In this document: positions 13,826 to 31,187 of the stretch, in pieces | Layout of the letters: every line of letters starts with the position of its first letter | Position numbering within the stretch: the first letter of the stretch is position 1 | Assembly: GCA_003246895.1 (NCBI GenBank) | Contig: QKCL01000069.1 | Location: 1-64,000, forward strand | Direction: 5' to 3' | Length of the DNA stretch: 64,000 nucleotides | Source of the DNA: Spirochaetota bacterium | Lineage (GTDB): Bacteria; Spirochaetota; UBA4802; UBA5550 | Made by a program: the position numbers and the translations under genes | Notes under the pieces: generated by a model | What the model saw: the letters and a program-made list of their open reading frames with translations, nothing else | What the model was told of the DNA's origin: nothing | Databases searched by the model: none

Positions 13826-14722
<897 letters not shown>

Positions 14723-14756
14723 GAGTATAAAAAAATATAAAAGGAGAATTGCTGTT

Positions 14757-15113
14757 ATGTTGATGATAAAATCAGTAGTAAGACCAAATAAAGTTGATGA
14801 TGTCCTGGCTGCTCTTATGGAAGCGGGATTTCCTGCAGTAACAAAAATTTCGGTAGTAGGTAGAGGTAAGCAGAGAGGTATTAAAATCGGAGAAGTAACA
14901 TATGATGAAATACCAAAAGAAATGCTGCTTACATGTATTAAAGACGAAGATAAAGAATATGTAATCAAGACAATAATGAATGCAGCAAGAACAGGAGAAA
15001 AAGGATCATTCGGAGACGGTAAGATTTTTGTTAGCCAGGTTGAAGAGGTCTATACAGTAAGCTCAGGAATCAAGGAAACTGCTGATGGTACTGTAGAAGA
15101 GGTAGCAATATGA
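14757..15113 (+). CDS. nifI1: PII-family nitrogenase regulator NifI1
   Basis: The 118-aa GlnB-like protein (MLMIKSVVRPNKVDDVLAAL at the N-terminus) has the internal PII core but a T-loop unlike GlnB/GlnK. With NifI2 it is known from methanogens and anaerobic bacteria to bind dinitrogenase and switch off activity when ammonium is present, in response to 2-oxoglutarate. The start at 14757 has AGGAG 10 nt upstream. Its position directly between nifH and nifD is diagnostic. Its stop overlaps the nifI2 start. Confidence 0.9.
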   Translation: MLMIKSVVRPNKVDDVLAALMEAGFPAVTKISVVGRGKQRGIKIGEVTYDEIPKEMLLTCIKDEDKEYVIKTIMNAARTGEKGSFGDGKIFVSQVEEVYTVSSGIKETADGTVEEVAI

Positions 15114-15490
15114 AAGAGGTATTGGCTGTAATTCGCATGAATAAAATAAACCAGACCAAGAGAGCACTACTTGATGCAGGAATAACATCTGTAACAGTAA
15201 AAGATGTTCTTGGTCGCGGGAAGGGTATGGTTGATATATCTCTTCTTGAAGGAGCTGAAAAAGGGTACGAAGAAGCCATAGCTCAATTGGGTTCTACTCA
15301 AAGGCTTATTCCCAAGAGGATGCTTTCAATAGTTTTACCTGATGCGTTGGTCAGTACTGTAGTTAAAACAATAATAAGTACCAACAAAACCGGAAAATCC
15401 GGCGATGGTAAAATTTTTGTAATGCCCGTAATGGATTCAGTAAGAATCAGAACAGGTGAGAATGGAAATACTGTTCTGGATGAAGCATAA
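15110..15490 (+). CDS. nifI2: PII-family nitrogenase regulator NifI2
   Basis: The 126-aa PII-like protein is the partner of NifI1 in the post-translational ammonium switch-off of nitrogenase. Recognisable blocks are MKEVLAVIRMNKINQTKRAL, VKDVLGRGKG, RMLSIVLPD and SGDGKIFVMPV. It overlaps nifI1 by 4 nt (ATGA), so the two are translated together, as expected for subunits that form a hetero-oligomer. The length is normal for NifI2. Confidence 0.9.
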   Translation: MKEVLAVIRMNKINQTKRALLDAGITSVTVKDVLGRGKGMVDISLLEGAEKGYEEAIAQLGSTQRLIPKRMLSIVLPDALVSTVVKTIISTNKTGKSGDGKIFVMPVMDSVRIRTGENGNTVLDEA

Positions 15491-15505
15491 GGCAGGAGGA
15501 AAATA

Positions 15506-17152
15506 ATGGGTAACAAGAATAATAAAGTGTTCGATCCTGAGTTTGTAAAACAGGAAATGATCAAAAAGTATCCTGCAAAAGTTGCAAGGAAGAGAGCTAA
15601 AGGTATAGTTGTAAACAAAATTGAAGGTGAAGATAAAGTAGTTCCTGAAATTCAGGCAAACGTAAGGACAATTCCTGGAATCATCACACAGCGTGGATGC
15701 TGCTATGCAGGCTGTAAGGGTGTTGTACTTGGCCCAACAAGGGATATTCTTAATCTTACACACGGTCCTATTGGATGCGGTTTTTACAGCTGGCTCACAA
15801 GAAGGAACCAGACAAAACCTGAAACAGAAACATCAGAGAATTATATGCCATACTGTTTCTCAACAGATATGCAGGATGAAGACATCGTTTTCGGTGGAGA
15901 AAAGAAACTGAAGCAGGCTATCAGAGAGGCAATGGAAATATTCAAACCTAAAGCCATAGGAATTTTCTCAACCTGTCCTGTTGGTCTAATAGGTGATGAC
16001 GTGCATGCTGTTGCAAGGGATATGAGAGAAGAATTCCCTGGAACAAATATTTTCGGTTTCAGTTGTGAAGGTTATAAAGGTGTTACACAGTCTGCTGGTC
16101 ACCATATTGCCAACAATGAGCTTTATAAACATATCATCGGTGAGAATGATACACCACTTGATGCTAAGTTTAAGGTTAACATGCTTGGTGAGTACAATAT
16201 TGGTGGTGATGCCTTTGAGATTGAGAGAATGTTTAATGAATCAGGGTTGACTCTAAATTCATCATTCAGTGGAAACTCTTCATACGATCAGTTTGCCAGA
16301 GCTCACACTGCGGATCTGGATGTGGTTATGTGTCACAGGTCAATTAACTATATGGCAGAAATGCTTGAAGCAAAATTTGGTATTCCATGGTTCAAGGTAA
16401 ACTTCATCGGTGCAAAAGACAGCGCCAAGTCCATGAGGAAAATTGCCAAGTATTTCGATGATAAAGAGCTTACTGCTAAGATTGAAGCATTCATTGAAAA
16501 AGAAATGGCTGAAGTTGAAAAAGTAAGACTTGATGTAATTAAAAGAACAGAAGGAAAAACAGCAGCGCTTTTCGTAGGTGGATCACGTGCTCATCATTAT
16601 CAGGAGCTTTTCAAGGAACTTGGAATGAAAACTATTTCTTCTGGTTATGAGTTTGGACACAGAGATGACTATGAAGGACGTAAAGTTCTCGATACAATCA
16701 AGGTTGATGCTGACAGTAGAAATATTGAAGAGCTTACAATCGAAAAAGATGAAGCAAGATATAAAGCAAGAAAGAGTGAGGCTGAACTCGATGCTCTGAA
16801 ATCTGATAAAGATTTTGAAATGAACGACTATGTGGGATTGATGCCGGATTCAGAAGAGGGAAGTCTTATAATTGATGACATAAGCCACTATGAAACAGAA
16901 AAACTTCTTGAGATATGCAAGCCTGATATTTTCTGTGCAGGTATCAAAGAGAAGTATGTTGTACAGAAATGGGGAGTGCCGTTGAAACAGCTTCACAGTT
17001 ACGATTACGGCGGACCTTACGCTGGTTTTAAGGGTGCAATTAACTTCTATAAAGAGATTGATAGAATGTTAAGCAGCAAGGTATGGGCAGATATTAAAGC
17101 TCCTTGGGAACAAAGCCCTGAACTTGTAGCTAAGTATGCATTTAACAATTAG
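15506..17152 (+). CDS. nifD: Nitrogenase molybdenum-iron protein alpha chain
   Basis: The 548-aa protein has the expected cluster ligands. P-cluster cysteines are C65 (RGCCYAG), C91 (GPIGC) and C157 (STCPVGLIGDD); FeMo-cofactor ligands are C276 (VVMCHRSINY) and H497 (LHSYDYGGPYAGF). All are intact, so a functional subunit is likely. It is longer than Azotobacter NifD (about 490 aa) because of an internal insertion near residues 380-440, as in anaerobe-type enzymes. The sequence around the first P-cluster Cys has two extra cysteines (C66, C70). GGAGG precedes the ATG. Confidence 0.95.
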   Translation: MGNKNNKVFDPEFVKQEMIKKYPAKVARKRAKGIVVNKIEGEDKVVPEIQANVRTIPGIITQRGCCYAGCKGVVLGPTRDILNLTHGPIGCGFYSWLTRRNQTKPETETSENYMPYCFSTDMQDEDIVFGGEKKLKQAIREAMEIFKPKAIGIFSTCPVGLIGDDVHAVARDMREEFPGTNIFGFSCEGYKGVTQSAGHHIANNELYKHIIGENDTPLDAKFKVNMLGEYNIGGDAFEIERMFNESGLTLNSSFSGNSSYDQFARAHTADLDVVMCHRSINYMAEMLEAKFGIPWFKVNFIGAKDSAKSMRKIAKYFDDKELTAKIEAFIEKEMAEVEKVRLDVIKRTEGKTAALFVGGSRAHHYQELFKELGMKTISSGYEFGHRDDYEGRKVLDTIKVDADSRNIEELTIEKDEARYKARKSEAELDALKSDKDFEMNDYVGLMPDSEEGSLIIDDISHYETEKLLEICKPDIFCAGIKEKYVVQKWGVPLKQLHSYDYGGPYAGFKGAINFYKEIDRMLSSKVWADIKAPWEQSPELVAKYAFNN

Positions 17153-17169
17153 GATGGAGGATACAGAAA

Positions 17170-18546
17170 ATGTTATTAAGACATACACCAAAGGAAATTA
17201 AGGAAAGGACTGCCCTAAGGGTAAATCCTGCGAAAACATGTCAGCCGGTTGGTGCGATGTATGCATCACTTGGAATTAACAAGTGTCTTCCACACAGTCA
17301 CGGTTCTCAGGGTTGTTGTGCTTATCACAGAAGCGTACTGACAAGGCACTATAAAGATCCAATTATGGCGGGAACAAGTTCATTTACAGAAGGAGCTTCT
17401 GTTTTCGGCGGCCAGGCAAACCTGCTTCAGGCGATAGATAACATCTTTACAATCTATGAGCCCGATGTAATTGCTGTTCACTCAACATGTCTTTCTGAAA
17501 CAATCGGTGACGATATGAATCAGATAGCTGCTAAGGCGAAAGAAGACGGTAAAATACCTGAGGGTAAATTTGTTATACATGCATCAACGCCAAGTTATGT
17601 TGGTTCACACGTAACAGGTTTTGCAAACATGACAAAATCTATGGCTCTTCAGTTTGCTCAGAAGACCGGCATAAAAGAAGATCATGTAAATGTTATCCCA
17701 GGATATGTTGAGCCTTCAGATATGAAGGAGATCAAGAGACTTCTTAAGGAAATGAAGGTAAAGAATATAATGTTTCCTGATACATCGCATGTTGTAAATG
17801 CACCGATGACAGGAAAATACAAAATGTATCCGGACGGCGGGGTAACTGTTGACGAACTGATGGAAACAGGTGACAGCTCATTTACTTTTGCTCTTGGACA
17901 GTGGGCATCTGAGGATGCGGCAAAGGGACTTGATGCAAAGTTCAGCATACCGTTTGATGTTCTTGATCTTCCAATAGGATATAAGGCGACAGACAGATTT
18001 ATAGAGTCACTTAGAAAAAATGCAGGAGTAACTGTTCCTGATTCAATAACAGTTGAAAGGGGACAGCTCATGGATGTTATAGCAGACATGCAGCAGTACC
18101 TATATCAGAAGAAAGTTGCTCTTGTTGGAGATCCGGATCAGATGATTGCTCTGACAGAATTTATTGTCTCTCTTGGAATGATACCTGCATATGTAATAAC
18201 AGGTACTCCAGGTAAAAAATTTGAAGAGAAAATCAAACAAATAACCAAAGATGTTCCATACGAAGTAAAAGTCAAAGCTGAAGGAGATATGTTCATGCTT
18301 CATCAGTGGATCAAAAATGATCCTGTTGATCTGCTAATGGGTAATACTTACCTGAAGTATATCGCAAGAGATGAAGATATTCCACTGGTGAGATTCGGAT
18401 TTCCGATACTTGACAGAATAGGACATTCATACTTCCCAACTGTTGGATATATGGGAGCCCTGAGACTTGTTGAGAAAATTCTTGAAAGACTCATGGACAG
18501 ATATGACAGAGATATTTCGGAAGAAAAGTTTGAATTAGTAATGTAA
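17170..18546 (+). CDS. nifK: Nitrogenase molybdenum-iron protein beta chain
   Basis: The 458-aa subunit forms the alpha2-beta2 MoFe protein with NifD. P-cluster cysteines are at C24 (TCQPVGAM), in SQGCCAYHR (C49/C50) and C107 (HSTCLSETIGDD). It lacks the roughly 50-residue N-terminal extension of proteobacterial NifK, as do clostridial and other anaerobe-type beta chains. It starts 18 nt after nifD, with GGAGG before the ATG. Confidence 0.95.
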   Translation: MLLRHTPKEIKERTALRVNPAKTCQPVGAMYASLGINKCLPHSHGSQGCCAYHRSVLTRHYKDPIMAGTSSFTEGASVFGGQANLLQAIDNIFTIYEPDVIAVHSTCLSETIGDDMNQIAAKAKEDGKIPEGKFVIHASTPSYVGSHVTGFANMTKSMALQFAQKTGIKEDHVNVIPGYVEPSDMKEIKRLLKEMKVKNIMFPDTSHVVNAPMTGKYKMYPDGGVTVDELMETGDSSFTFALGQWASEDAAKGLDAKFSIPFDVLDLPIGYKATDRFIESLRKNAGVTVPDSITVERGQLMDVIADMQQYLYQKKVALVGDPDQMIALTEFIVSLGMIPAYVITGTPGKKFEEKIKQITKDVPYEVKVKAEGDMFMLHQWIKNDPVDLLMGNTYLKYIARDEDIPLVRFGFPILDRIGHSYFPTVGYMGALRLVEKILERLMDRYDRDISEEKFELVM

Positions 18547-18558
18547 TTGGGGGACACA

Positions 18559-19917
18559 ATGATTAAGGTTCTTGATGAGAGGGTAAAACAGATTCATGAA
18601 AAAGGTGCAGAGCCGTTTGACTTTGACTGCGACAGACGAAGTACTGCCGGGTCAGTCAGCCAGAGGGCATGTGTATTCTGTGGATCAAGGGTAGTTCTTT
18701 ATCCCATAGCTGATGCCGTCCATTTGATACATGGACCAATCGGATGCGCTGCATATACATGGGATATAAGGGGATCTCTTTCATCGGGACCAGAACTTCA
18801 CAGGCTTAGTTTTTCCACTGATATACAGGAAGAAGAGGTTATCTTTGGTGGAGAAAAGAAGCTTGAGAAGTCCCTTAATGAGTTAATTGATATTTATAAA
18901 CCTAAAGCTGCATTCGTGTATTCAACATGCATCATCGGTGTTATCGGTGATGATGTTGAAGCAGTTTGCAGAAAGGTTTCAAAGGAAAAAGGTATCCCTG
19001 TCCTTCCTGTACATTCGGAAGGATTCAAGGGTACAAAAAAAGACGGATATGCAGCAGCCTGTGAATCAATTTTTAAGATAATCGGAACAGGCAATACAGA
19101 TGATGTAAGTGAATTCAGCATCAACATTATGGGTGAATTCAACCTTGCCGGTGAAGCCTGGATCATAAAAAAGTATTATGAGGAGATGGGTGTACAGGTA
19201 GTTTCAACAATGACCGGTGATGGAAGGGTTGGAGACATAGCCCGTGCTCATGGAGCAAAACTGAATGTTGTGCAATGTTCCGGCTCTATGACAAAGCTTG
19301 CTAAAATGATGGAGGAGAGATATGGAATCCCTTTTATCAGGGTGTCTTACTTCGGAATTGAAGACGTATCTGAAGCTCTCTATGAAGTAGCAAGATTTTT
19401 CAAAGGGAATCCGGAAATAATGGTAAAGGCAAAAGACCTTGTTAAAAGAGAAATTTCAAAAATCATTCCTGAAATGGAAAAATTCAGAAAAGCTCTCAGG
19501 GGTAAAAAAGCTGCAATTTATGTGGGTGGAGCATTCAAGGCTTTCTCTCTGATTAAACAGCTGAGATACCTTGGAATGGAAGTAGTTCTTGCCGGATCTC
19601 AAACAGGCAACAAGGAAGACTATGAGTTTCTCAGAGAAATGTGCAATGACGGAACTATCATTGTGGATGATTCAAATCCTTTGGAGCTCTCGAAGTACAT
19701 GCTTGAGAAGAAGGCTGATCTCTGTATCGGTGGAGTAAAGGAAAGACCGATTGCATACAAACTGGGTATAGGTTTCTGTGATCATAATCATGAGAGAAAG
19801 ATTCCTCTGGCAGGTTTTGAAGGAATGTATAATTTTTCAAAAGAAGTGTATAATACAGTACTGAGTCCCGTATGGAAATTTGCGCCGAGAAACAGAAAAC
19901 ATGGAGGAGAAAGATGA
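18559..19917 (+). CDS. nifE: FeMo-cofactor biosynthesis scaffold NifE
   Basis: The 452-aa NifD paralogue forms the NifEN scaffold on which the NifB cofactor matures. Family blocks are RACVFCGSRVVLYPIADAVH, HGPIGCAAYTWDIRG and STCIIGVIGDD. I place the start at the ATG at 18559, 5 nt after GGGGG, rather than at the in-frame TTG that directly follows the nifK stop. It overlaps the nifN start by 4 nt. Confidence 0.94.
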   Translation: MIKVLDERVKQIHEKGAEPFDFDCDRRSTAGSVSQRACVFCGSRVVLYPIADAVHLIHGPIGCAAYTWDIRGSLSSGPELHRLSFSTDIQEEEVIFGGEKKLEKSLNELIDIYKPKAAFVYSTCIIGVIGDDVEAVCRKVSKEKGIPVLPVHSEGFKGTKKDGYAAACESIFKIIGTGNTDDVSEFSINIMGEFNLAGEAWIIKKYYEEMGVQVVSTMTGDGRVGDIARAHGAKLNVVQCSGSMTKLAKMMEERYGIPFIRVSYFGIEDVSEALYEVARFFKGNPEIMVKAKDLVKREISKIIPEMEKFRKALRGKKAAIYVGGAFKAFSLIKQLRYLGMEVVLAGSQTGNKEDYEFLREMCNDGTIIVDDSNPLELSKYMLEKKADLCIGGVKERPIAYKLGIGFCDHNHERKIPLAGFEGMYNFSKEVYNTVLSPVWKFAPRNRKHGGER

Positions 19918-21290
19918 ACAAGGTAATGGATAATAAAAACAATACTGACAAGTATATCGTTACCAGAAATGCGTGCAAACTCTGTTCTCCTCTGGGCGCA
20001 AGTATAGTTTTACGCGGCATAGAAAATTCAATGCCCATACTGCATGGGTCTCAGGGGTGTGCAACGTATATCAGAAGATATCTCATTAGTCACTTTAATG
20101 AACCTATAGATATTGCATCGTCCAATTTCACTGAAAGTGAGGTTGTTTTTGGAGGGTCTTCAAATCTGAACCAGAGTCTTGATAATGTTACAAAACAGTA
20201 TGAGCCCGATATAATCGGTGTGGCAACAACCTGTCTCAGCGAGACAATCGGTGATGATGTTCCGAGATTTTTAAGGGAATACAAAAAAGAAAGAGAGGGC
20301 AGGAAGATTCCTGAAATATTTACAGTATCAACACCAAGTTACAAGGGATCACATATGGAAGGTTTTCATCAAACCCTTAAGGCTGTAGTTGACGCCATTC
20401 CGGGTGATGAAATTAAAACTGATTCTGTAAATCTGTTTCCGGGATTTATCTCGACTGCAGACCTCAGACACCTGAAAGAAATTTTTGAAGATTTTGGGGT
20501 TAATCCCATCATGCTTCCCGATTATTCAGAGACCCTAGATGGAACATCATGGGAAACATATAATAAAATTTCACCGGGAGGTACTCCTGTTTCTGAAATC
20601 AAAAAAATGGGAGGAGCCAGGGAGAGTATTGAATTCGGGAAAACTCTCAGTGAGGTAGAGAGTGCCGGTAAAAATCTGGAGAAAAAATTCGGAGTAAAAT
20701 GCAGCAGCCTGGGGCTTCCAATAGGCATAAGGGAAACAGATACCTTAATGGATCTCATGGAAAAACTCTCAGGTAAATCCATGCCTGAAAAATATGTGAA
20801 AGAAAGAGAAAGGCTGATAGATGCCATGTCAGACGGGCATAAATATGTAATGGGAATAAAAGCAGTGGTTTATGGAGAAGAGGATTTTGTGGCCGGAATT
20901 GCTTCAATGCTCCTTGAAATCGGAGTAGTGCCTTCCCTGTGTGCTTCTGGAGGTAAAAGCGGTTTCCTTGAAGAGAAGATAAGATCCATGGCTGAAGGAT
21001 ATACTGATGAGGAAATAATTGTAAAGGATGGAGTAGATTTTATGGATATTTCCGAAATTGCAAAGGAAATAAATCCGGACATGATTGTAGGAAACAGCAA
21101 GGGATATACCCTTTCGAGAACTATAAATAAGCCTCTTGTTCGTGTAGGTTTTCCAATACACGACAGAATAGGAGGCCAGAGAATACTTCATATTGGATAC
21201 AGAGGTGCTCAGCAGCTTTTCGATATGGTAACTAACACAGTTATTCAGTACAGGCAGGATTCATCGCCTGTTGGATATACATATATGTAA
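19914..21290 (+). CDS. nifN: FeMo-cofactor biosynthesis scaffold NifN
   Basis: The 458-aa NifK paralogue is the partner of NifE. Recognised by ACKLCSPLGASIVLRGIE, HGSQGCATYIRRYLISHFNEP, SSNFTESEVVFGG and TTCLSETIGDD. The ATG at 19914 overlaps the nifE stop (ATGA) and has GGAGG 6 nt upstream; the frame is open to an earlier ATG at 19872 inside nifE, which is unlikely. Strict coupling suits a 1:1 NifEN complex. Confidence 0.92.
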   Translation: MNKVMDNKNNTDKYIVTRNACKLCSPLGASIVLRGIENSMPILHGSQGCATYIRRYLISHFNEPIDIASSNFTESEVVFGGSSNLNQSLDNVTKQYEPDIIGVATTCLSETIGDDVPRFLREYKKEREGRKIPEIFTVSTPSYKGSHMEGFHQTLKAVVDAIPGDEIKTDSVNLFPGFISTADLRHLKEIFEDFGVNPIMLPDYSETLDGTSWETYNKISPGGTPVSEIKKMGGARESIEFGKTLSEVESAGKNLEKKFGVKCSSLGLPIGIRETDTLMDLMEKLSGKSMPEKYVKERERLIDAMSDGHKYVMGIKAVVYGEEDFVAGIASMLLEIGVVPSLCASGGKSGFLEEKIRSMAEGYTDEEIIVKDGVDFMDISEIAKEINPDMIVGNSKGYTLSRTINKPLVRVGFPIHDRIGGQRILHIGYRGAQQLFDMVTNTVIQYRQDSSPVGYTYM

Positions 21291-21301
21291 GGAGAATTGT
21301 T

Positions 21302-22567
21302 ATGAGAGTAGATATTTCAACACACCCATGTTTTAACAAAGACGCAAAGAATACTCACGGAAGAGTACACCTTCCTGTGGCACCAAGATGCAATGTTCAG
21401 TGCAATTTCTGTGACAGGAAATTTGACTGTGTAAATGAGAGCCGTCCGGGTGTAACCAGTACAATTCTCACTCCACACCAGGCGCTTGCCTATTACAGGG
21501 ATATAAGAAACAAGAATGAAAATATCAGTGTTGTTGGTATTGCAGGGCCTGGAGATCCTTTTGCCAATCCCAATGAGACAATGGAAACACTTAGACTCAT
21601 ACGTGCCGAGTTCCCCGATGTAATACTTTGCCTGGCTACAAACGGCTTGAACTTATACCCATATCTGGATGAATTGGCCGAACTTGAGGTGAGTCATGTT
21701 ACAATTACTGTAAATGCTGTGGATCCTGAAATAGGTGCAAAGATATATTCATGGTTAAGACCTGCCAAGATTACACTGAGGAGTGTGGAAGGAGCAAAGA
21801 TCCTTCTTGAAGAGCAGCTCAAGTGCATAAAGAAGATGAAAGAGCTCGGACTTATCGTTAAAATCAACTCTGTTGTGGTACCGGGAATAAATGACAACCA
21901 TATAGTTGAAATTGCAAAGACTGTTTCGGAACTGGGAGCTGATATCTTTAATCCAATGGCATATTATAATAATCCGGGAAGTAATTTCGGCCATATTGAG
22001 ACACCTTCAAAGGAACTCATACATGAAATAAGGAATGAATCTAAGCAGTATATGAATCTGATGCTGCACTGTCAGAGATGCAGGTCAGATGCTATCGGTC
22101 TTATCTCTGATGAAATGAAGCCGGAACAGTACTCACGACTTGTTGAATTTTCAAAACTACAGCTTGTTCCTGCAAAGGATAAGCCCAATGTAGCTGTTGC
22201 CACGAATGAGGGAATGCTTGTGAATCAGCATCTCGGCGAAGCTGAGGAACTGTATATTTTTCAGGACAGGGACGGCTCATATGAGCTTCTTGAAAAAAGA
22301 CCGCTTCCTTCAGCTGGTGGAGGTATGAACAGATGGCAGGAGGTTGCTGAAACAATTTCAGACTGCAGCTATCTGCTCGTGAGCGGAATCGGTGAAACCC
22401 CGAAGAGTGTACTTGCCGAACATGGAATTGAAGTGAGGACTATAGAGGGCATGATTTCCGAAGCGCTTAACGGGATTTATAAGGGAATTGATATAAATCA
22501 CATGATAAAAAGAACAAGAACCAAATGCGGTGAGTCCTGTACAGGATCCGGGACAGGCTGCGGTTGA
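21302..22567 (+). CDS. nifB: FeMo-cofactor biosynthesis radical SAM protein NifB with NifX-like domain
   Basis: The 421-aa protein has a radical SAM domain (about 20-270) with the cluster motif CNVQCNFC (C30, C34, C37). A NifX/NafY-like cofactor-binding domain follows (about 295-400, starting KPNVAVATNEGMLVNQHLG). It converts 4Fe-4S units to the NifB cofactor using SAM. The tail ends in a short Cys/Gly-rich stretch (CGESCTGSGTGCG) that may bind metal. There is no separate nifX in the operon, consistent with the fused domain. AAGGAG precedes the ATG. Confidence 0.95.
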   Translation: MRVDISTHPCFNKDAKNTHGRVHLPVAPRCNVQCNFCDRKFDCVNESRPGVTSTILTPHQALAYYRDIRNKNENISVVGIAGPGDPFANPNETMETLRLIRAEFPDVILCLATNGLNLYPYLDELAELEVSHVTITVNAVDPEIGAKIYSWLRPAKITLRSVEGAKILLEEQLKCIKKMKELGLIVKINSVVVPGINDNHIVEIAKTVSELGADIFNPMAYYNNPGSNFGHIETPSKELIHEIRNESKQYMNLMLHCQRCRSDAIGLISDEMKPEQYSRLVEFSKLQLVPAKDKPNVAVATNEGMLVNQHLGEAEELYIFQDRDGSYELLEKRPLPSAGGGMNRWQEVAETISDCSYLLVSGIGETPKSVLAEHGIEVRTIEGMISEALNGIYKGIDINHMIKRTRTKCGESCTGSGTGCG

Positions 22568-22594
22568 TATACAGTAACATTTAAGGAGAAAATA

Positions 22595-22903
22595 ATGGAA
22601 AAACCAACACATCATATTTTTGTATGTGCCAGCTTCAGAGCAAAGGGGGAGCCTCAGGGTGTATGCCATCAGAAAGGTGCAATGAATTTCGTTTCATATA
22701 TTGAAAATGAAATCATTGACAGAGGCATGGACGGAGTAGTTGTATCAACAACAGGCTGTCTTAAGGCCTGTGACAGGGGACCAATTATGGTTGTTTATCC
22801 AGAGAACCACTGGTATGGCGGAGTTGAAAGTGAAGATATTATTGACGAAATACTTGACGCTATTGAAGATGGTGAACCTGTAGAGAAGTATCTTATCTGC
22901 TGA
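22595..22903 (+). CDS. Thioredoxin-like [2Fe-2S] ferredoxin
   Basis: The 102-aa protein belongs to the thioredoxin-fold [2Fe-2S] ferredoxins typified by the Clostridium pasteurianum and Azotobacter Shethna proteins. Cysteines lie in FVCASF, GVCHQKG and TTGCLKACDRGP, the expected spacing, and the end YGGVESEDIIDEIL is typical. These ferredoxins are often encoded in nif clusters and interact with the MoFe protein or its assembly. It starts 27 nt after nifB, with AAGGAG upstream. Confidence 0.9.
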   Translation: MEKPTHHIFVCASFRAKGEPQGVCHQKGAMNFVSYIENEIIDRGMDGVVVSTTGCLKACDRGPIMVVYPENHWYGGVESEDIIDEILDAIEDGEPVEKYLIC

Positions 22904-22930
22904 AAATAATTATTTTTGATCGGAGTTTCA

Positions 22931-24091
22931 ATGTCTCAGAAAAGAAGAATCAAGGTTTATGACACAACACTCAGAGATGGAGAACAGGCCCCCGGTTTTT
23001 CCATGACAGTTGAGGAAAAATGCAGAGTGGCTGCAGCACTTTCAGAACTGGGTGTTGATGTCATTGAGACCGGTTTTCCTGCAGCATCACACGGGGAGAT
23101 TGAGGCTGTATCAAGAATATCAGAGCAATGCACAAATGTCGTTTGCACTGCACTTGCCAGGGCAAACGACAGTGACATTGACGCGGCAAAGGAAGCCCTT
23201 TCGTCGGCGCAGAACCCCAGGATTCATGTATTCATTCCCACATCTGATGTGCAGATCATGTATCAGATGAGAAGCGACAGATCCAGCACAATTAAACAGG
23301 CGACCATGGCAGTAAGGCGTGCCCTCCGTTATGTAAGTGATGTTCAGTTCTCAGCAATGGATGGAACAAGGGCAGATCGGGAATTTCTCTGCCAGATTTT
23401 CTCTCAGATGATTGAAGAGGGCGTTTCAACAATTAATATATCCGACACTGTAGGATATCTCCTGCCCCATGAAGCCATGGACCTTGTCAGGTATGTGAAG
23501 GAAAATGTAGCAGGCATTGATAAAGTTGAACTTTCCATTCATTGCCATGATGATCTGGGAATGTCCACCGCTAACACGATAGCGGCAGTGAAAGCCGGCA
23601 TTGATCAGGTTGAGTGTACTGTAAACGGAATAGGAGAAAGGGCAGGGAATGCCGCACTTGAAGAGGTTGTTACTGCCATGAAAATCCGTGGTGATGAACT
23701 GAATGTGTATAGTGAAATCGATTTTAAAAAACTGCTTTCTCTAAGTGAGATTGTACAGGAAGTGACCGGGGTGAGAGTTCCTCCAAACAAATCGGTTGTT
23801 GGTTCAAATGCATTTGCCCATGAGGCCGGCATCCACCAGGATGGGCTTCTGAAAAATGAGGATACCTATCAGCTTGTGAGTCCTGCACTGGTAGGCTTGA
23901 AGGGGCCGCAGTTTGTACTTGGCAAGCACTCAGGAAGGCATGCCCTCCTTGATTTTATCAGAAAGAAGGGGTACTCACTTTCAGAAAATCAGTTTAAAGC
24001 TGTCTATAATGAGATCAAGGTCATAACTGACAGGGATAAAAAGATCAGCCAGGACGAAATAATAGCAATCATTGAAGGTATTCTGAAATAA
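22931..24091 (+). CDS. nifV: Homocitrate synthase NifV
   Basis: The 386-aa enzyme condenses acetyl-CoA with 2-oxoglutarate to give homocitrate, the organic ligand of FeMo-cofactor. Signature blocks of the isopropylmalate/homocitrate synthase family are present: DTTLRDGEQAPGFSM, the HCHDDLGMSTANT metal site and NGIGERAGNAALEEVV. The length and nif context favour NifV over LeuA. I use the ATG at 22931 (GGAG 5 nt upstream) and not the in-frame TTG 15 nt earlier. It ends 4 bp before a large gene on the opposite strand, with no terminator visible between them. Confidence 0.93.
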   Translation: MSQKRRIKVYDTTLRDGEQAPGFSMTVEEKCRVAAALSELGVDVIETGFPAASHGEIEAVSRISEQCTNVVCTALARANDSDIDAAKEALSSAQNPRIHVFIPTSDVQIMYQMRSDRSSTIKQATMAVRRALRYVSDVQFSAMDGTRADREFLCQIFSQMIEEGVSTINISDTVGYLLPHEAMDLVRYVKENVAGIDKVELSIHCHDDLGMSTANTIAAVKAGIDQVECTVNGIGERAGNAALEEVVTAMKIRGDELNVYSEIDFKKLLSLSEIVQEVTGVRVPPNKSVVGSNAFAHEAGIHQDGLLKNEDTYQLVSPALVGLKGPQFVLGKHSGRHALLDFIRKKGYSLSENQFKAVYNEIKVITDRDKKISQDEIIAIIEGILK

Positions 24092-24095
24092 TTAA

Positions 24096-27000
24096 TCAGA
24101 ATACCCAGAGGAAGGTATGTTTCTTCTGACCGTCCCTTTCTACCCATTTATACAGTCCCTTGAGAATCGAAAATTTCCTGAATCCGGTTTCTCCCTCTGT
24201 TTCATAGTTCCATAATATTCCCCACATGCTGCCCTGTGCATGGTAATCTCTTTCCGGTTCCCTCACTTCATTGTAAACTGAACCGAGAAGCCACATGCGT
24301 CTGTCTGTCTTTTCTTTTATATTTTCATTGCGGTAGTAAATGAGTCCAAGAAGGCCAAGGTCAAAGTCACCGTCCTTTGATTCACTGAAGTAGCTCAATG
24401 CCGGCGGAATCAGCAGTGACCATTCATCATCGCCATATGAACTGTATGAGTATAAAGGAAGAATCCTGTGATGAAAACTCTTCCCTGACCGTTCAATGCC
24501 AGCAAGGTAGAGCAGAGAGTTAAACTCATAATCCGGGCTGTTTGTATAGCTTTTATAGTTGCAAAGGGCTCCCCAGAACATTCTGAACTGCCTCAGTTCA
24601 CGTGTTGTTCTGTAATCGATTGTGGTAAAGAGCATGGAATATTCATTGGACTCATATGAGGTGTAGGTATATTTTTTGTGGTCATATAGGTAATAAATAT
24701 TCTGTCTTTCATATCTCTCTGAATCATGCCAGTATGTTCCAAGTATAACTCTTGAACTTGAACCCGGAGTTTTGCTGTATCCGCTTAAAAGCGGGAAAAT
24801 CATAAGAAATGATGAGTCTTTATCATCACTGCGGTAGTAGAATGGAAGCACCATGGAATGTGTAAGGTTTCCTTCCCTGTTCCTGTTAAAGTCAATGATG
24901 CCCAGTATGTTTGTATGTTTCTCTCCTTCAGTTTCAGTACCATAATAGAAAGGAAGGAAAAAGTTTCTTCTGTAATTGTTCTCTTCTTTGTGATCGATAA
25001 GTCCCAGCAGGTTCCAGTGTCTGTATGATCCTTCGCTGTGTGAATAGAACAATGGAATAACTGGAACCCACAGGGTTTCCGAATGACTTGCAGACCCGTT
25101 AATAACAGTTTCGGATGTATTTTTATAATAGAAGGGGTTTGCAAATGTATTGCTTTTAGAAGCAACGGAAATATCTGATTTATCTTCGGGAGAGGTAAAT
25201 GCCAGTGTTTCCGATTTTTCCGAACTGTAGTACAGAGGGATGACAGGGTACCATCTGGAGCTGCTTTCTGTTTTTATTTCCGGTGTGCTGTAGGTTTCTG
25301 TTCCAGAATAAAAGAGCGGGTTCATCTCTGTGGAATCCGACTGTTCAGCCTTTACCGTAACATTCTCAGCAACTGTTTCAGTTTCATTAAAATGGTTACT
25401 GCTGCTGTAATAAACCGGAAATACCATTGTATGGCTGTGGCCGGCAGATTCATGTTTGTCATAAAGTCCCAGAACATTCATGTGGAATTTTTCATTGCTT
25501 CTGCTGTAATAGTACAGAGGCAGAAGTGGTGCCCAGAATTCATATGATGAGTACTCTGTTTCTTTCTCCCTCTTTGACACAGATCTGTAGAAAAAGGGAT
25601 TAATGAGAGTTGTTTCAGTGACATCTCCTTTCCTGTTACTGTCATAATGGAAAATTGGAAGGATAGGTATATTCAGAGAATAGAATTCCTCGTCATTTTC
25701 AGTCTTCTCATTTTCAATGTAAAGAGGGTTTACTACCCTGCTGTAGAGAAGCCTGCCTGTTTTCTCCTCCCTGATTTTACGGTTGTAATGAAGGAGAGAT
25801 ATTGTTCTGTAATTTCTCTTTGAAGATTCAAGCCAGGATTTGTGCCAGACAAAGGGGAAGAACCTGTAGCCGTCCTTGTCAGGAGAGCTGTACCAGTTTA
25901 TGAAGGGCCAGAGGACTGTCTGCTCCCTGTAATTTTTTTCCGAGTCGAATTCATCCCAGTAAAGGTTAAGTACCACGCCCCTTTTGTATGATTTTCCCTT
26001 TCTCTGGTATCCGTAGAACGGAACGACTGTAAAGTATTCCTCATCAAGTTCAGTGGACTTGTATGAAACGTAAAACGGGAGTATGGCGATGAATTTTTCA
26101 TTACCCTTGTCTGTGAGGTTAATCCACGCAAGGGGAAGCATACGGAAATGTTTATGATCATCTGAACGCTCATATGCCATCCACCCGAAGAGAAGTTTCC
26201 ATCCCCAGAATAAGTGTGAGTTTTCACGGGTATATTTATTCTCGTCGGAGATCTTGCTCACTTTCGTATTATTTTCTTTCGGTTTTTCTGAACTTGTACC
26301 GGATGCTTCATCTTTTTTCAGTGGATTCTTTATTGGTATCCTGGACGAGAAACTCCAGACATCGTAGAGCCATGATATGTCGCTGTCAAGGTGCCATGTG
26401 TTGTCTTTGTTTTGAAGGCCAACTGTGAGGTCTGGCTTGAAGGGGCTCATATATGTTTTGCGCGCATAACCCGTGAGGTTTATGTGAAGAGTTGTGTCTG
26501 AATCTTTATAATTAAAGTAAAGTGGCAGAATTACAGTACCCTCACTTTCTGAAGTTTTCCAGTCCCAGTAGAGGGGAATGAAATGAGTATAGGTTTCACC
26601 GGGGCTAACCTTTTCAGAATTTGTTTTGGTCACCTTTGTATCAGTCTTTTCACTGTGGTAGTAGAGCCATGCCCATGTCTTCTCTCCACCTTCCCACCAT
26701 CTGTGGTAGTGGAAGAGTCCGAAATGCATACCCTGTTTCTCATCTGAACCTGAAGGTCTTATGTAGAAGGGAACATAGTATCTGTAACCGTTATCTTTGC
26801 TCTGGTGAAAAACAAATGGCAGAACCGAGAACCTTTTAAGGTTGCCTTCAGTATCATTCTCCCAGTCAAAAAATAAAAGAAGGTTCCGGTGGGTACCTTC
26901 ACCTTTTGTGTAGCTTGAATAAAATAGAGGTACTATTGGAAACCAGAAGTTTGAGTACTCAACATTCTGGTTTGAAGCTGACCTTTCCTCAGTACTGCAG

Positions 27001-28103
27001 TAAAGAGGTGTAATAAGTCCGTCATCATCGGTTGCACTGCCACGGTCTTTCCATTTTGAGTACAATGGCAGGAGATGGCTGTAACTACTCCCTGTTGAGT
27101 CTGTGGAGCTGTAGAAAACAGGTACTATTGGTATCCATAGTTTCCACCTGACTTCCTCACCAGTTTTTGAATCTGTAACTAGATTTCTTCCATAGAGGAG
27201 ATTTACGTTCCACTCACTGACCCTTGAACTGTAGCTGTTTTTCCACCTTGAGTAGAGAGGCAGGAGATGTTCATAAAAGTCACCGTTTGAGTACCTGTTC
27301 TTTATGTAAACAGGGGGAAGTACATATGTGTAGCCGTCATCTCCTCTCCCCCAAAGATATAATGGGAGAAACCAGAAGCGCTTCATTGAATCCTTTCCAT
27401 TTTCAGTTGTCCAGGAATAGTCAAGAAGCCAGAAGATGTTTCTGTGGCCGCCGTAGCTGTCAACATCGTGATATGTCAGGGGGAGAATGGGAGCCCACCA
27501 TGTATATGAATTTCTGGATTTTTTTTCATTGCCCGATGAATAGCTTACAAAAAGCGGGTTGATCCAGAATGATTCGTAGTCACCGGATTTTGTCTTTGAG
27601 CTCTCCTGATAAAGGAGAGGAAAAAGAAAATGATAATTGTCTGATTTATATGAAGAGATGCTGTCGCCCCACCAGTAAAGGAAAAGGAGAGACCTGTCGC
27701 TGCCGTATCTGTTCACATTGCTGTAGTATAGGGGTGCAAGGAGAAACAGTATTTCCTGGTCCCTGTCCCTTTCAAAATAGGAAAGCAGGGGCGGGATGAC
27801 TGTCATCTTTCTGTTGTCGATTTTGCTGTTCAGGTTATAATAAAAAGGAAGAAACCTCATTGAACTGTATTTGGGGTAATCGGTATTTTTGTACAGGCCC
27901 ATGACCATGAGGGCGTGATGGTCTTCCCATTCCTCCTTTTCGATGAAAAAGGCATTTATTGGATACTTCTCCTCTTTTTCACTTCCGTAAATTTTGCGTT
28001 CATCCCTGTCCAGATCGTACCAGGATCTTGTCATGGCATAATCTGGAAAAAGGGATGCTAAAATAAAAAAGAGAAACAGAAAAACTGATGATCTGGCTGT
28101 CAT
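24096..28103 (-). CDS. Very large exported repeat protein, about 35 copies of an hhPLhYs motif; function unknown
   Basis: This 1335-aa protein has a signal peptide (hydrophobic residues about 6-22) and no other membrane helix. The mature part is a tandem series of a short motif: two hydrophobic residues, Pro, Leu/Phe, aromatic, Tyr, Ser (for example LAPLYYSN, IVPLFYSS, ILPLYFNY, VLPFYYRS), repeated about 35 times at 30-45-residue intervals. Polar Ser/Asn/Lys/Glu segments, often with W or Y, lie between. Stretches near 575-615 and 880-960 are more acidic and spacer-like. Each motif could be an amphipathic beta-strand, giving an extended beta-solenoid or a barrel-like outer-membrane protein. 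I do not recognise a characterised family. The gene converges on nifV with a 4-bp gap, and base composition matches its surroundings. No clear ribosome site precedes the ATG. Confidence 0.75.
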   Translation of the reverse strand: MTARSSVFLFLFFILASLFPDYAMTRSWYDLDRDERKIYGSEKEEKYPINAFFIEKEEWEDHHALMVMGLYKNTDYPKYSSMRFLPFYYNLNSKIDNRKMTVIPPLLSYFERDRDQEILFLLAPLYYSNVNRYGSDRSLLFLYWWGDSISSYKSDNYHFLFPLLYQESSKTKSGDYESFWINPLFVSYSSGNEKKSRNSYTWWAPILPLTYHDVDSYGGHRNIFWLLDYSWTTENGKDSMKRFWFLPLYLWGRGDDGYTYVLPPVYIKNRYSNGDFYEHLLPLYSRWKNSYSSRVSEWNVNLLYGRNLVTDSKTGEEVRWKLWIPIVPVFYSSTDSTGSSYSHLLPLYSKWKDRGSATDDDGLITPLYCSTEERSASNQNVEYSNFWFPIVPLFYSSYTKGEGTHRNLLLFFDWENDTEGNLKRFSVLPFVFHQSKDNGYRYYVPFYIRPSGSDEKQGMHFGLFHYHRWWEGGEKTWAWLYYHSEKTDTKVTKTNSEKVSPGETYTHFIPLYWDWKTSESEGTVILPLYFNYKDSDTTLHINLTGYARKTYMSPFKPDLTVGLQNKDNTWHLDSDISWLYDVWSFSSRIPIKNPLKKDEASGTSSEKPKENNTKVSKISDENKYTRENSHLFWGWKLLFGWMAYERSDDHKHFRMLPLAWINLTDKGNEKFIAILPFYVSYKSTELDEEYFTVVPFYGYQRKGKSYKRGVVLNLYWDEFDSEKNYREQTVLWPFINWYSSPDKDGYRFFPFVWHKSWLESSKRNYRTISLLHYNRKIREEKTGRLLYSRVVNPLYIENEKTENDEEFYSLNIPILPIFHYDSNRKGDVTETTLINPFFYRSVSKREKETEYSSYEFWAPLLPLYYYSRSNEKFHMNVLGLYDKHESAGHSHTMVFPVYYSSSNHFNETETVAENVTVKAEQSDSTEMNPLFYSGTETYSTPEIKTESSSRWYPVIPLYYSSEKSETLAFTSPEDKSDISVASKSNTFANPFYYKNTSETVINGSASHSETLWVPVIPLFYSHSEGSYRHWNLLGLIDHKEENNYRRNFFLPFYYGTETEGEKHTNILGIIDFNRNREGNLTHSMVLPFYYRSDDKDSSFLMIFPLLSGYSKTPGSSSRVILGTYWHDSERYERQNIYYLYDHKKYTYTSYESNEYSMLFTTIDYRTTRELRQFRMFWGALCNYKSYTNSPDYEFNSLLYLAGIERSGKSFHHRILPLYSYSSYGDDEWSLLIPPALSYFSESKDGDFDLGLLGLIYYRNENIKEKTDRRMWLLGSVYNEVREPERDYHAQGSMWGILWNYETEGETGFRKFSILKGLYKWVERDGQKKHTFLWVF

Positions 28104-28411
28104 AGGTTACCCGGTTTGTTATATTAAAATATAAGTATAGAAAATATCTGATTTATAGTCAAACAGTAAAAACAGACATTTGGATATGTTTATTATGCGT
28201 GAGGTACATGGAGGGCGGCGAAGCCGGTGTGGAACACCGGAGCCCGGAATGGACCGGCCCGACATGGTATAAAAAAATTTTTTACTGATGGTGACAGATC
28301 TCACAGCTTTTTATAGATGAGAGAAGGGAGGGACACGCCCGGCAAAAAAATGGTTGTAAGATTTGCAATCTTTAAGTATTTTAGATTTTCTTAAAAATCC
28401 TGGAGGAATAT
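28104..28411. other. Intergenic region between the repeat protein and a divergent flavoprotein gene
   Basis: A 308-bp divergent spacer with no gene. It is AT-rich except for a sharply bounded GC-rich block (28201-28265, listed separately). A second small GC-rich patch lies near 28328-28344. The Shine-Dalgarno GGAGG before the ATG at 28412 is clear; promoters are not obvious. Confidence 0.5.
28201..28265. repeat. GC-rich palindromic block, candidate dispersed repeat
   Basis: The block is strongly GC-rich in otherwise AT-rich DNA. Its core is a perfect hairpin, CCGGTGT (28224-28230) and ACACCGG (28234-28240) around a GGA loop, flanked by further GGCC/CCGG-rich sequence. It is followed by an AT palindrome-like run (about 28268-28284). 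The abrupt composition and structure resemble an intergenic repeat or small mobile element. I see no second copy in the window. Confidence 0.4.
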
Positions 28412-29492: not shown

Positions 29493-31187
29493 CTAATCCA
29501 GGAAGTAGTTGAAGTCCTTCTTTTCATTTTCTGTCATTATTTCACAGATTTCTGCTGCATTTTTTGACATGAAAATCCTGTTAAGGGTGTTTTCCGCACT
29601 CAGTATTTTTGAAAGCTGGCTCAGAACCGCAATGTGCAGGTCATCCTTGTGATTGAGAGGGGTGACAATGAGTACTATAAGCCTGACAGGCTCACCGTCG
29701 ATGGAATCAAAGTCTATTCCCTTTCTTGAAAGGCCTATGGCTCCCCATATGACGGGGCCTTTGCTCACAAGTCCGTGAGGGATTGCTATTCCCTTGCCCA
29801 CACCTGTAGATGAAAGGTTTTCCCTCTCCATTACGGAGTTAAGAATTTCTTTCTTCTGCCTCCTTGTGCCGTTATGTGTTTTTATAAAAAAATCAATAAG
29901 TTCCTCAATGGCCTCTTCTTTTGTTTCGGCTTTGAGGTTTGGGTTTATATATTCTTCCATGAGGAATTCAATCAGTTTAGGCCTGTCCTGTCCTGCATCA
30001 CCGCTTTCTGTGAGGGCCCATTTGGCAATTGGAGGCCCCACTATTTCGCTCAGGGCTACAACAGCAAGAACAAGGGTTGTAAGAAAGTCAGTTATATGAC
30101 TAAGTTCCGGAATGCTTCTTGCCATTATTACAAGACCTATTGCAACACCGGCCTGGGGGAGAAGAGTGGCTCCAATGAAGTTGTAAACCCTCTGAGGGGC
30201 CTTTGCTATACGCGCACCTATTGTGGCTCCGGTAACCTTTCCCAGGATCCTGCTGAAAAAGTAAACAATACCGACAGTCCCGGCAAGTCCCAGGCTGTTT
30301 ATGTCGATATGGGCTCCGGCCAGAGCAAAAAATACTATGAGAATGAGATATTCTATCTCCTCAAATATTGTAAGAATTTTTGATTTGTGATGGCTTGAAT
30401 TTGTTATGACCATACCTATGACCATGCACGGCAGCATGGAATTGATGTCCAGTGAAATTGAAATTCCCGTAGTTGCAAAAACTGTAAGAAGGACAAATGT
30501 CAGAACATGTGCGCCTGAGGAGATGCTTCTTTCTGCAAAGTATTTCAGGATAAAACCTGTAATCAGTCCTAGAATAACAGAAATCAGTATGTCCTTTCCG
30601 AAGATGAGGAAAATATCAGAAAACTGAAAAGCCTTACCCTTTGAAATGACATCAGCCATTATTCCGAAAACAAGAATACAGAGAACATTGTTGAGTGCAA
30701 CAACAGGCATGAGCGTATTTACCAGAAGGCCCTTTGCCTTGATCTCCTTTACCGTTGCCACCGTTGCGGCAGGAGCAGTGGCGATGGAAATTGATGCGAT
30801 TAGAAGTGCCAGGAGCATATCCTTTTTTGCTATATACTTAAGGGCGATGAATACAAATGTGAAAGTAAAAATACTTTCGAAGAGAAATACGAAAAAAATT
30901 CTTTTGCCTGAAAGTTTTAGCTTAAAAAAATTCAGGTGGGCGCCGATAGTTATTGACATGAGCCCGAGTGCGATAAGGTTGAATCCCTGAAGATTTTTAT
31001 GATTTTCCGGTGAAATCAGATGCAGTAGCGGGTCGCCGATTATTATTCCGGCAAAAATATACCCTGTGATCTGCGGGAGTCGCAGGGTTTTTGCAATATG
31101 TGCAAAAATCAGTCCGAGAATTATCAAAAGGGCAAGAACAAGTATACCATTGCCCTTCAGGTTAGTTGTTATTATTGAATCAATCAT
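29493..31187 (-). CDS. CPA2-type cation/proton antiporter fused to a C-terminal PTS IIA domain
   Basis: The 564-aa protein has an N-terminal Na+/H+ exchanger domain (about 1-390, eleven to thirteen membrane helices, CPA2/KefB style) and a cytoplasmic PTS EIIA domain of the fructose/nitrogen type (about 405-560). The EIIA phospho-acceptor is H471 in GKGIAIPHG. There is no TrkA-N domain. The fusion suggests that PEP-dependent phosphotransfer gates ion exchange. The transported ion (Na+ or K+) cannot be read from sequence. It is divergent from the HD-GYP gene. Confidence 0.85.
   Translation of the reverse strand: MIDSIITTNLKGNGILVLALLIILGLIFAHIAKTLRLPQITGYIFAGIIIGDPLLHLISPENHKNLQGFNLIALGLMSITIGAHLNFFKLKLSGKRIFFVFLFESIFTFTFVFIALKYIAKKDMLLALLIASISIATAPAATVATVKEIKAKGLLVNTLMPVVALNNVLCILVFGIMADVISKGKAFQFSDIFLIFGKDILISVILGLITGFILKYFAERSISSGAHVLTFVLLTVFATTGISISLDINSMLPCMVIGMVITNSSHHKSKILTIFEEIEYLILIVFFALAGAHIDINSLGLAGTVGIVYFFSRILGKVTGATIGARIAKAPQRVYNFIGATLLPQAGVAIGLVIMARSIPELSHITDFLTTLVLAVVALSEIVGPPIAKWALTESGDAGQDRPKLIEFLMEEYINPNLKAETKEEAIEELIDFFIKTHNGTRRQKKEILNSVMERENLSSTGVGKGIAIPHGLVSKGPVIWGAIGLSRKGIDFDSIDGEPVRLIVLIVTPLNHKDDLHIAVLSQLSKILSAENTLNRIFMSKNAAEICEIMTENEKKDFNYFLD

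Follow-up and report, generated by a model that had tools for sequence, protein, structure and literature searches.

The window, as we call the whole 64,000-nucleotide stretch of DNA analysed here, carries at positions 24096-28103 a gene for a 1335-aa repeat protein. The original prediction had identified this open reading frame without giving its strand, and the frame is borne out: it lies on the minus strand with its start at 28103, and 61 stop codons interrupt a plus-strand reading of the same interval. The gene converges with a LeuA/NifV-type synthase gene, its stop codon lying 4 bases away, and its other flank is occupied by a divergent thioredoxin-reductase-like gene. Because of this flanking arrangement and a promoter-like site of its own (Table 1), the gene stands alone. 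Direct search found one copy in its genome, Rfam gave no match around the gene, and no neighbour was consistently conserved among the loci examined. A thioredoxin-reductase-like neighbour present in 3 loci and a large cluster of sensor-kinase-like neighbours were considered as partners and judged incidental.

The synthase gene closes a nif cluster (window 13838-24091) that also holds nifH, nifD, nifK, nifE, a nifN-like gene scoring just under its model cut-off, nifB and a 2Fe-2S ferredoxin gene. NifD (window 15506-17152) has 548 aa, about 80 more than its 466-position model, and two stretches matching related models end near aa 391; the protein may contain an insertion. Window 29493-31187 encodes a protein resembling cation:proton antiporters that carries a PTS IIA (PtsN/FruA-like) domain at its C-terminus.

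Table 1. Features of the repeat-protein gene (window positions; aa, residues of the 1335-aa product)
Feature	Position	Strand	Remark
Whole CDS, LA_1737 family repeat protein (P0001)	24096..28103	-	1335 aa
Promoter-like site TTGACT-17-TATACT	28134..28162	-	30 bases 5' of ATG; weak evidence
Signal sequence, aa 1-25, cleavage site approximate	28029..28103	-	read from sequence
Array of ~64 hydrophobic/aromatic strands, period ~19 residues	24099..28022	-	
Conserved mature N-terminus, aa 28-98	27810..28022	-	alignment A1, 20 sequences
Conserved core, aa 505-770	25794..26591	-	common to nearly all relatives
Polar linker with low conservation, ~aa 598-625	26229..26312	-	inside core
LA_1737 C-terminal domain (NF047486), aa 1185-1329	24117..24551	-	
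C-terminal strand KHTFLWVF, beta-signal-like end	24099..24122	-	

Repeat architecture of the long protein

The protein had been predicted to contain about 35 motifs built around Pro-Leu-aromatic residues, and this count was reproduced: a relaxed pattern ([ILVFWMANT]P[LFIVP][FYWLIVTA][YFWVLINSHG]) gave 35 matches, against a mean of 1.9 and a maximum of 8 in shuffled sequences, and a stricter pattern gave 12 against 0.07. A P-[LFIVPA]-hydrophobic context accounts for 46 of the 62 prolines. The proposed spacing of 30-45 residues captured part of the regularity, as motif-to-motif gaps concentrate at 33-39 residues but also at 16-20, and the smoothed hydrophobicity autocorrelation (0.43 at 19 residues, 0.26 at 38) points to an underlying period of ~19 residues. 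Power in the 16-24-residue band was 0.594, compared with 0.174 ± 0.032 for shuffled sequences. The real repeat unit is a hydrophobic/aromatic strand of ~10 residues in every ~19: about 10 contiguous apolar residues, with Trp/Phe before the block, aliphatic residues and Pro in its middle and Tyr-Tyr after it, followed by about 9 polar residues. Hydrophobic peaks number 64 when the profile is averaged over the alignment and 70 when the sequence is taken by itself; the Pro-Leu-aromatic motif is present on about half of the strands, and the polar linker is the longest gap of the array.

A unit of 19 residues falls within the length range of solenoid coils, and a beta-solenoid, as initially suggested, or a stacked-sheet fibre, either of them secreted or surface-exposed, would take each unit as one rung of a structural or adhesive assembly that is not inserted into the membrane. 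In each unit, however, the apolar residues lie together in a single uninterrupted block and are not distributed round a coil, which does not favour a solenoid. For adhesion, also proposed at the outset, we found no support, and we consider the solenoid or fibre unlikely.

Membership and distribution of the LA_1737 family

The NCBIfam model NF047486 (LA_1737_Cterm) matches the C-terminal 145 residues of the long protein at 130.3 bits (E 5.9e-38), with a curated cut-off of 60 bits, and also matches all 20 aligned relatives. This profile match places the protein in the named but uncharacterised LA_1737 family; the view that it belongs to no characterised family thus holds for function, although a named family exists. 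The model spans 158 positions at the C-terminus only, gives no function and leaves the rest of the 1335 aa unmodelled. As the family takes its name from a locus tag of Leptospira interrogans, it has relevance to the envelope of a pathogen; our literature searches found neither a paper on LA_1737 in Leptospira nor one linking Leptospira to both MCE and MlaE. Pfam had no significant match for 20 long members, and the plasmid search returned no match. The PDB contained no match for the single long sequence, for the long-family profile or for the profile of a short family described below, and viral contigs none for either profile.

The original prediction had pointed to a search for homologues, and NF047486 matched in 49 of the 296 sampled genomes of one phylum, which we infer to be Spirochaetota (47 above the cut-off), and in none of 14 control genomes; judged by these matches, LA_1737 homologues appear confined to that phylum in the genomes sampled. 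A genome-wide search with the single sequence of the long protein had L019 as its sole match. The relatives range from 731 to 2333 aa with 38-129 hydrophobic peaks, and have the N-terminus, the core and the C-terminus in common; across 20 aligned sequences, 31 columns do not vary. Within the conserved mature N-terminus W28, D30, L31, E42, K46, E57, W59, H62, Y76, P77, P86, D96 and R98 are invariant in these sequences. Tandem blocks of ~135-145 residues in L044 and L074 suggest that length differences among members arise partly via tandem duplication of such multi-strand blocks, a mode of growth that would also suit a solenoid or fibre.

A short family beside mla genes

The long-family profile weakly matches proteins of 480-590 aa in further genomes. 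This short family (~540 aa) is found in 63 of the 296 genomes of the phylum, nearly always as a single copy, and includes a member in the window's own genome (L094:3991-5613, G000:C79); the other loci are L095-L103 and L108-L127. It has no NCBIfam model, and Pfam gave no significant match for 6 members. Like the long proteins, the short ones (alignment A3) show a strand period of ~19 residues, P-L-aromatic motifs, a signal-like N-terminus and a hydrophobic C-terminus. They differ in having 22-33 strands instead of ~64, in their linkage to mlaEFD, and in a hydrophobic insertion absent from the long family (about PGIALFFLYPPASLL in L094). In 26 of 30 loci mlaE lies directly downstream of the short gene, 24 of these also containing mlaF, and mlaD is present in most of the loci that combine the short gene with mlaE. 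Pfam confirms MlaE, ABC_tran and MlaD beside the short gene, which in the window's genome precedes mlaE-mlaF-mlaD. The short gene is absent from the mla loci sampled in family f22, and some f34 and f11 genomes carry it away from an mla operon. Next to the long gene, mla genes never occur in the loci examined.

Comparison of the two families by hhalign gave a probability of 98.3 and an E of 1.7e-14 over 383 columns, against 7.5e-5 for a reversed alignment and 0.34-0.67 for permuted columns, and hmmsearch between them gave 37-65 bits, against at most 18 for reversed sequences. The strongest region of the weak matches is the second half of the core. The reversed and permuted controls led us to reject composition as the sole cause of the similarity; the reversed control also shows that shared composition and period add to the score, of which they explain part, not all. 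These comparisons indicate that the long and short families are distantly homologous, and a distant homologue encoded with mlaEFD argues against the solenoid or fibre.

We know of no outer-membrane partner described for spirochaete Mla/MCE lipid transporters, and the papers that our searches brought up do not discuss one. By gene order the short family suits this position, and it is a candidate outer-membrane partner of the system; the giant LA_1737 proteins carry the same repeat on to 700-2300 residues. No neighbour of the long gene is conserved, and the role proposed for its product draws on the distant homology.

Termini, strand faces and possible architectures

By eye, the N-terminus of the long protein looks like a Sec signal sequence, in which R4 is followed by VFLFLFFILASLF and the mature protein begins with the conserved WxDL, and homologues from both families have signal-like N-termini too. 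The predicted signal peptide is thus recognisable, and the predicted export would follow from it. At the other end, a hydrophobic last residue, as expected of BAM substrates, is present in 33 of 43 long and 27 of 30 short members, compared with 27% of neighbouring ORFs; Phe is last in 20 of the 30 short members, compared with 6% of neighbouring ORFs. In both families the last residue is mostly F, L or I; about a quarter of the long members end in a residue that is not hydrophobic. This bias is the main evidence that the long protein is probably located in the outer membrane, and a fibre would offer no known reason for it.

In the usual outer-membrane strand or beta-groove, apolar residues take turns with polar ones. 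E. coli outer-membrane proteins, taken as positive controls, gave a dyad alternation z of 3.8 for LptD, 3.8 for FadL, 2.5 for OmpF and 1.7 for FhuA, and TamB gave 5.0; the long protein, in contrast, gave -1.5, as did the mean over 41 family members, and neither conservation, side-chain volume nor aromaticity alternated along its strands. Without alternation, both sides of each strand seem to be apolar, so that they would either be in contact with lipid or some other apolar material or be stacked in layers, and layered packing could again mean a fibre. This puzzling absence of alternation is the most interesting feature of the long protein. AlphaFold gave all-beta models for aa 786-1335 (pLDDT 31.7) and aa 488-800 (pLDDT 34.8), which, built on nearly empty alignments (window and L019 sequences only), are no evidence for the fold.

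A conventional water-filled barrel of the porin or receptor type, or several in tandem, would account for the signal sequence, the strand length and the beta-signal-like C-terminus. We nevertheless regard it as very unlikely: inside/outside alternation is missing, the turns are short all along by eye, and no match to a porin, a TonB receptor or LptD was found. TamB/AsmA-like proteins, too, are long beta meanders and take part in the lipid traffic of the envelope, and a beta-groove of this type bridging the periplasm, with lipids carried along one apolar face, would be in keeping with the great length, the meander and the distant link to lipid-transport genes. The strong alternation of TamB contrasts with the long protein, however, by eye there is no N-terminal membrane anchor beyond the signal sequence, and these proteins have no sequence match to it, Pfam finding neither AsmA nor TamB; such a groove appears quite improbable.

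The outer-membrane, lipid-handling repeat protein originally envisaged fits the beta-signal-like C-termini and the distant homology to an mla-operon protein, and this much of the prediction stands with partial confidence. We tentatively favour, with somewhat less than even confidence, a giant outer-membrane beta-meander/barrel of the LA_1737 family that serves lipid or envelope traffic. The signal sequence would direct Sec export, and the hydrophobic C-terminal strand, judging by C-termini across the family, would be recognised by BAM. About 64 short antiparallel strands, each with ~10 apolar residues between Trp/Phe and Tyr-Tyr and joined by polar turns of ~9 residues, would then insert as a very large meander or close into a barrel, the periodicity being observed and the topology predicted. 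By analogy with the short mla-linked protein, the structure may move or hold lipids at the outer membrane. Weighing against this reading are the missing alternation, the low pLDDT of the models, the long members without a hydrophobic end, the separation of the long gene from mla genes, the share of composition and period in the long-short score, and mla loci that lack the short gene. Because face alternation is lacking, our findings suggest that both sheet faces contact apolar groups, for example in a lipid-lined lumen; transmembrane strands of this kind would depart from the two-faced design usual in outer-membrane barrels. A bolder and distinctly unlikely form of the proposal is a ring or fence of ~64 transmembrane strands (up to ~129 in relatives), apolar on both faces and with lipid on both sides, which would corral a patch of outer-membrane lipid or form a lipid-filled conduit, the short form being the outer-membrane end of the spirochaete Mla/MCE transporter.

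The analogy that we propose with LptD, TGD4-type proteins and Mla outer-membrane partners lies in their position at the outer membrane within a lipid-transport pathway; none of them matches the long protein in sequence. MlaA-OmpC is one such Mla partner. In Veillonella, a 10-strand barrel is fused to MlaD and is not a separate protein (PMC10665443). Several f34 genomes (L100:3775-4611, L123, L125, L139-L141) have a second MlaD-type (MCE) gene between mlaE and mlaF, and the f34 transporter may contain two different MCE proteins. The window's genome has three MlaE-type permease genes, one of which (L137:5807-6619, G000:C49) is adjoined by neither mlaF nor the short gene and lies next to a DnaB-like gene.
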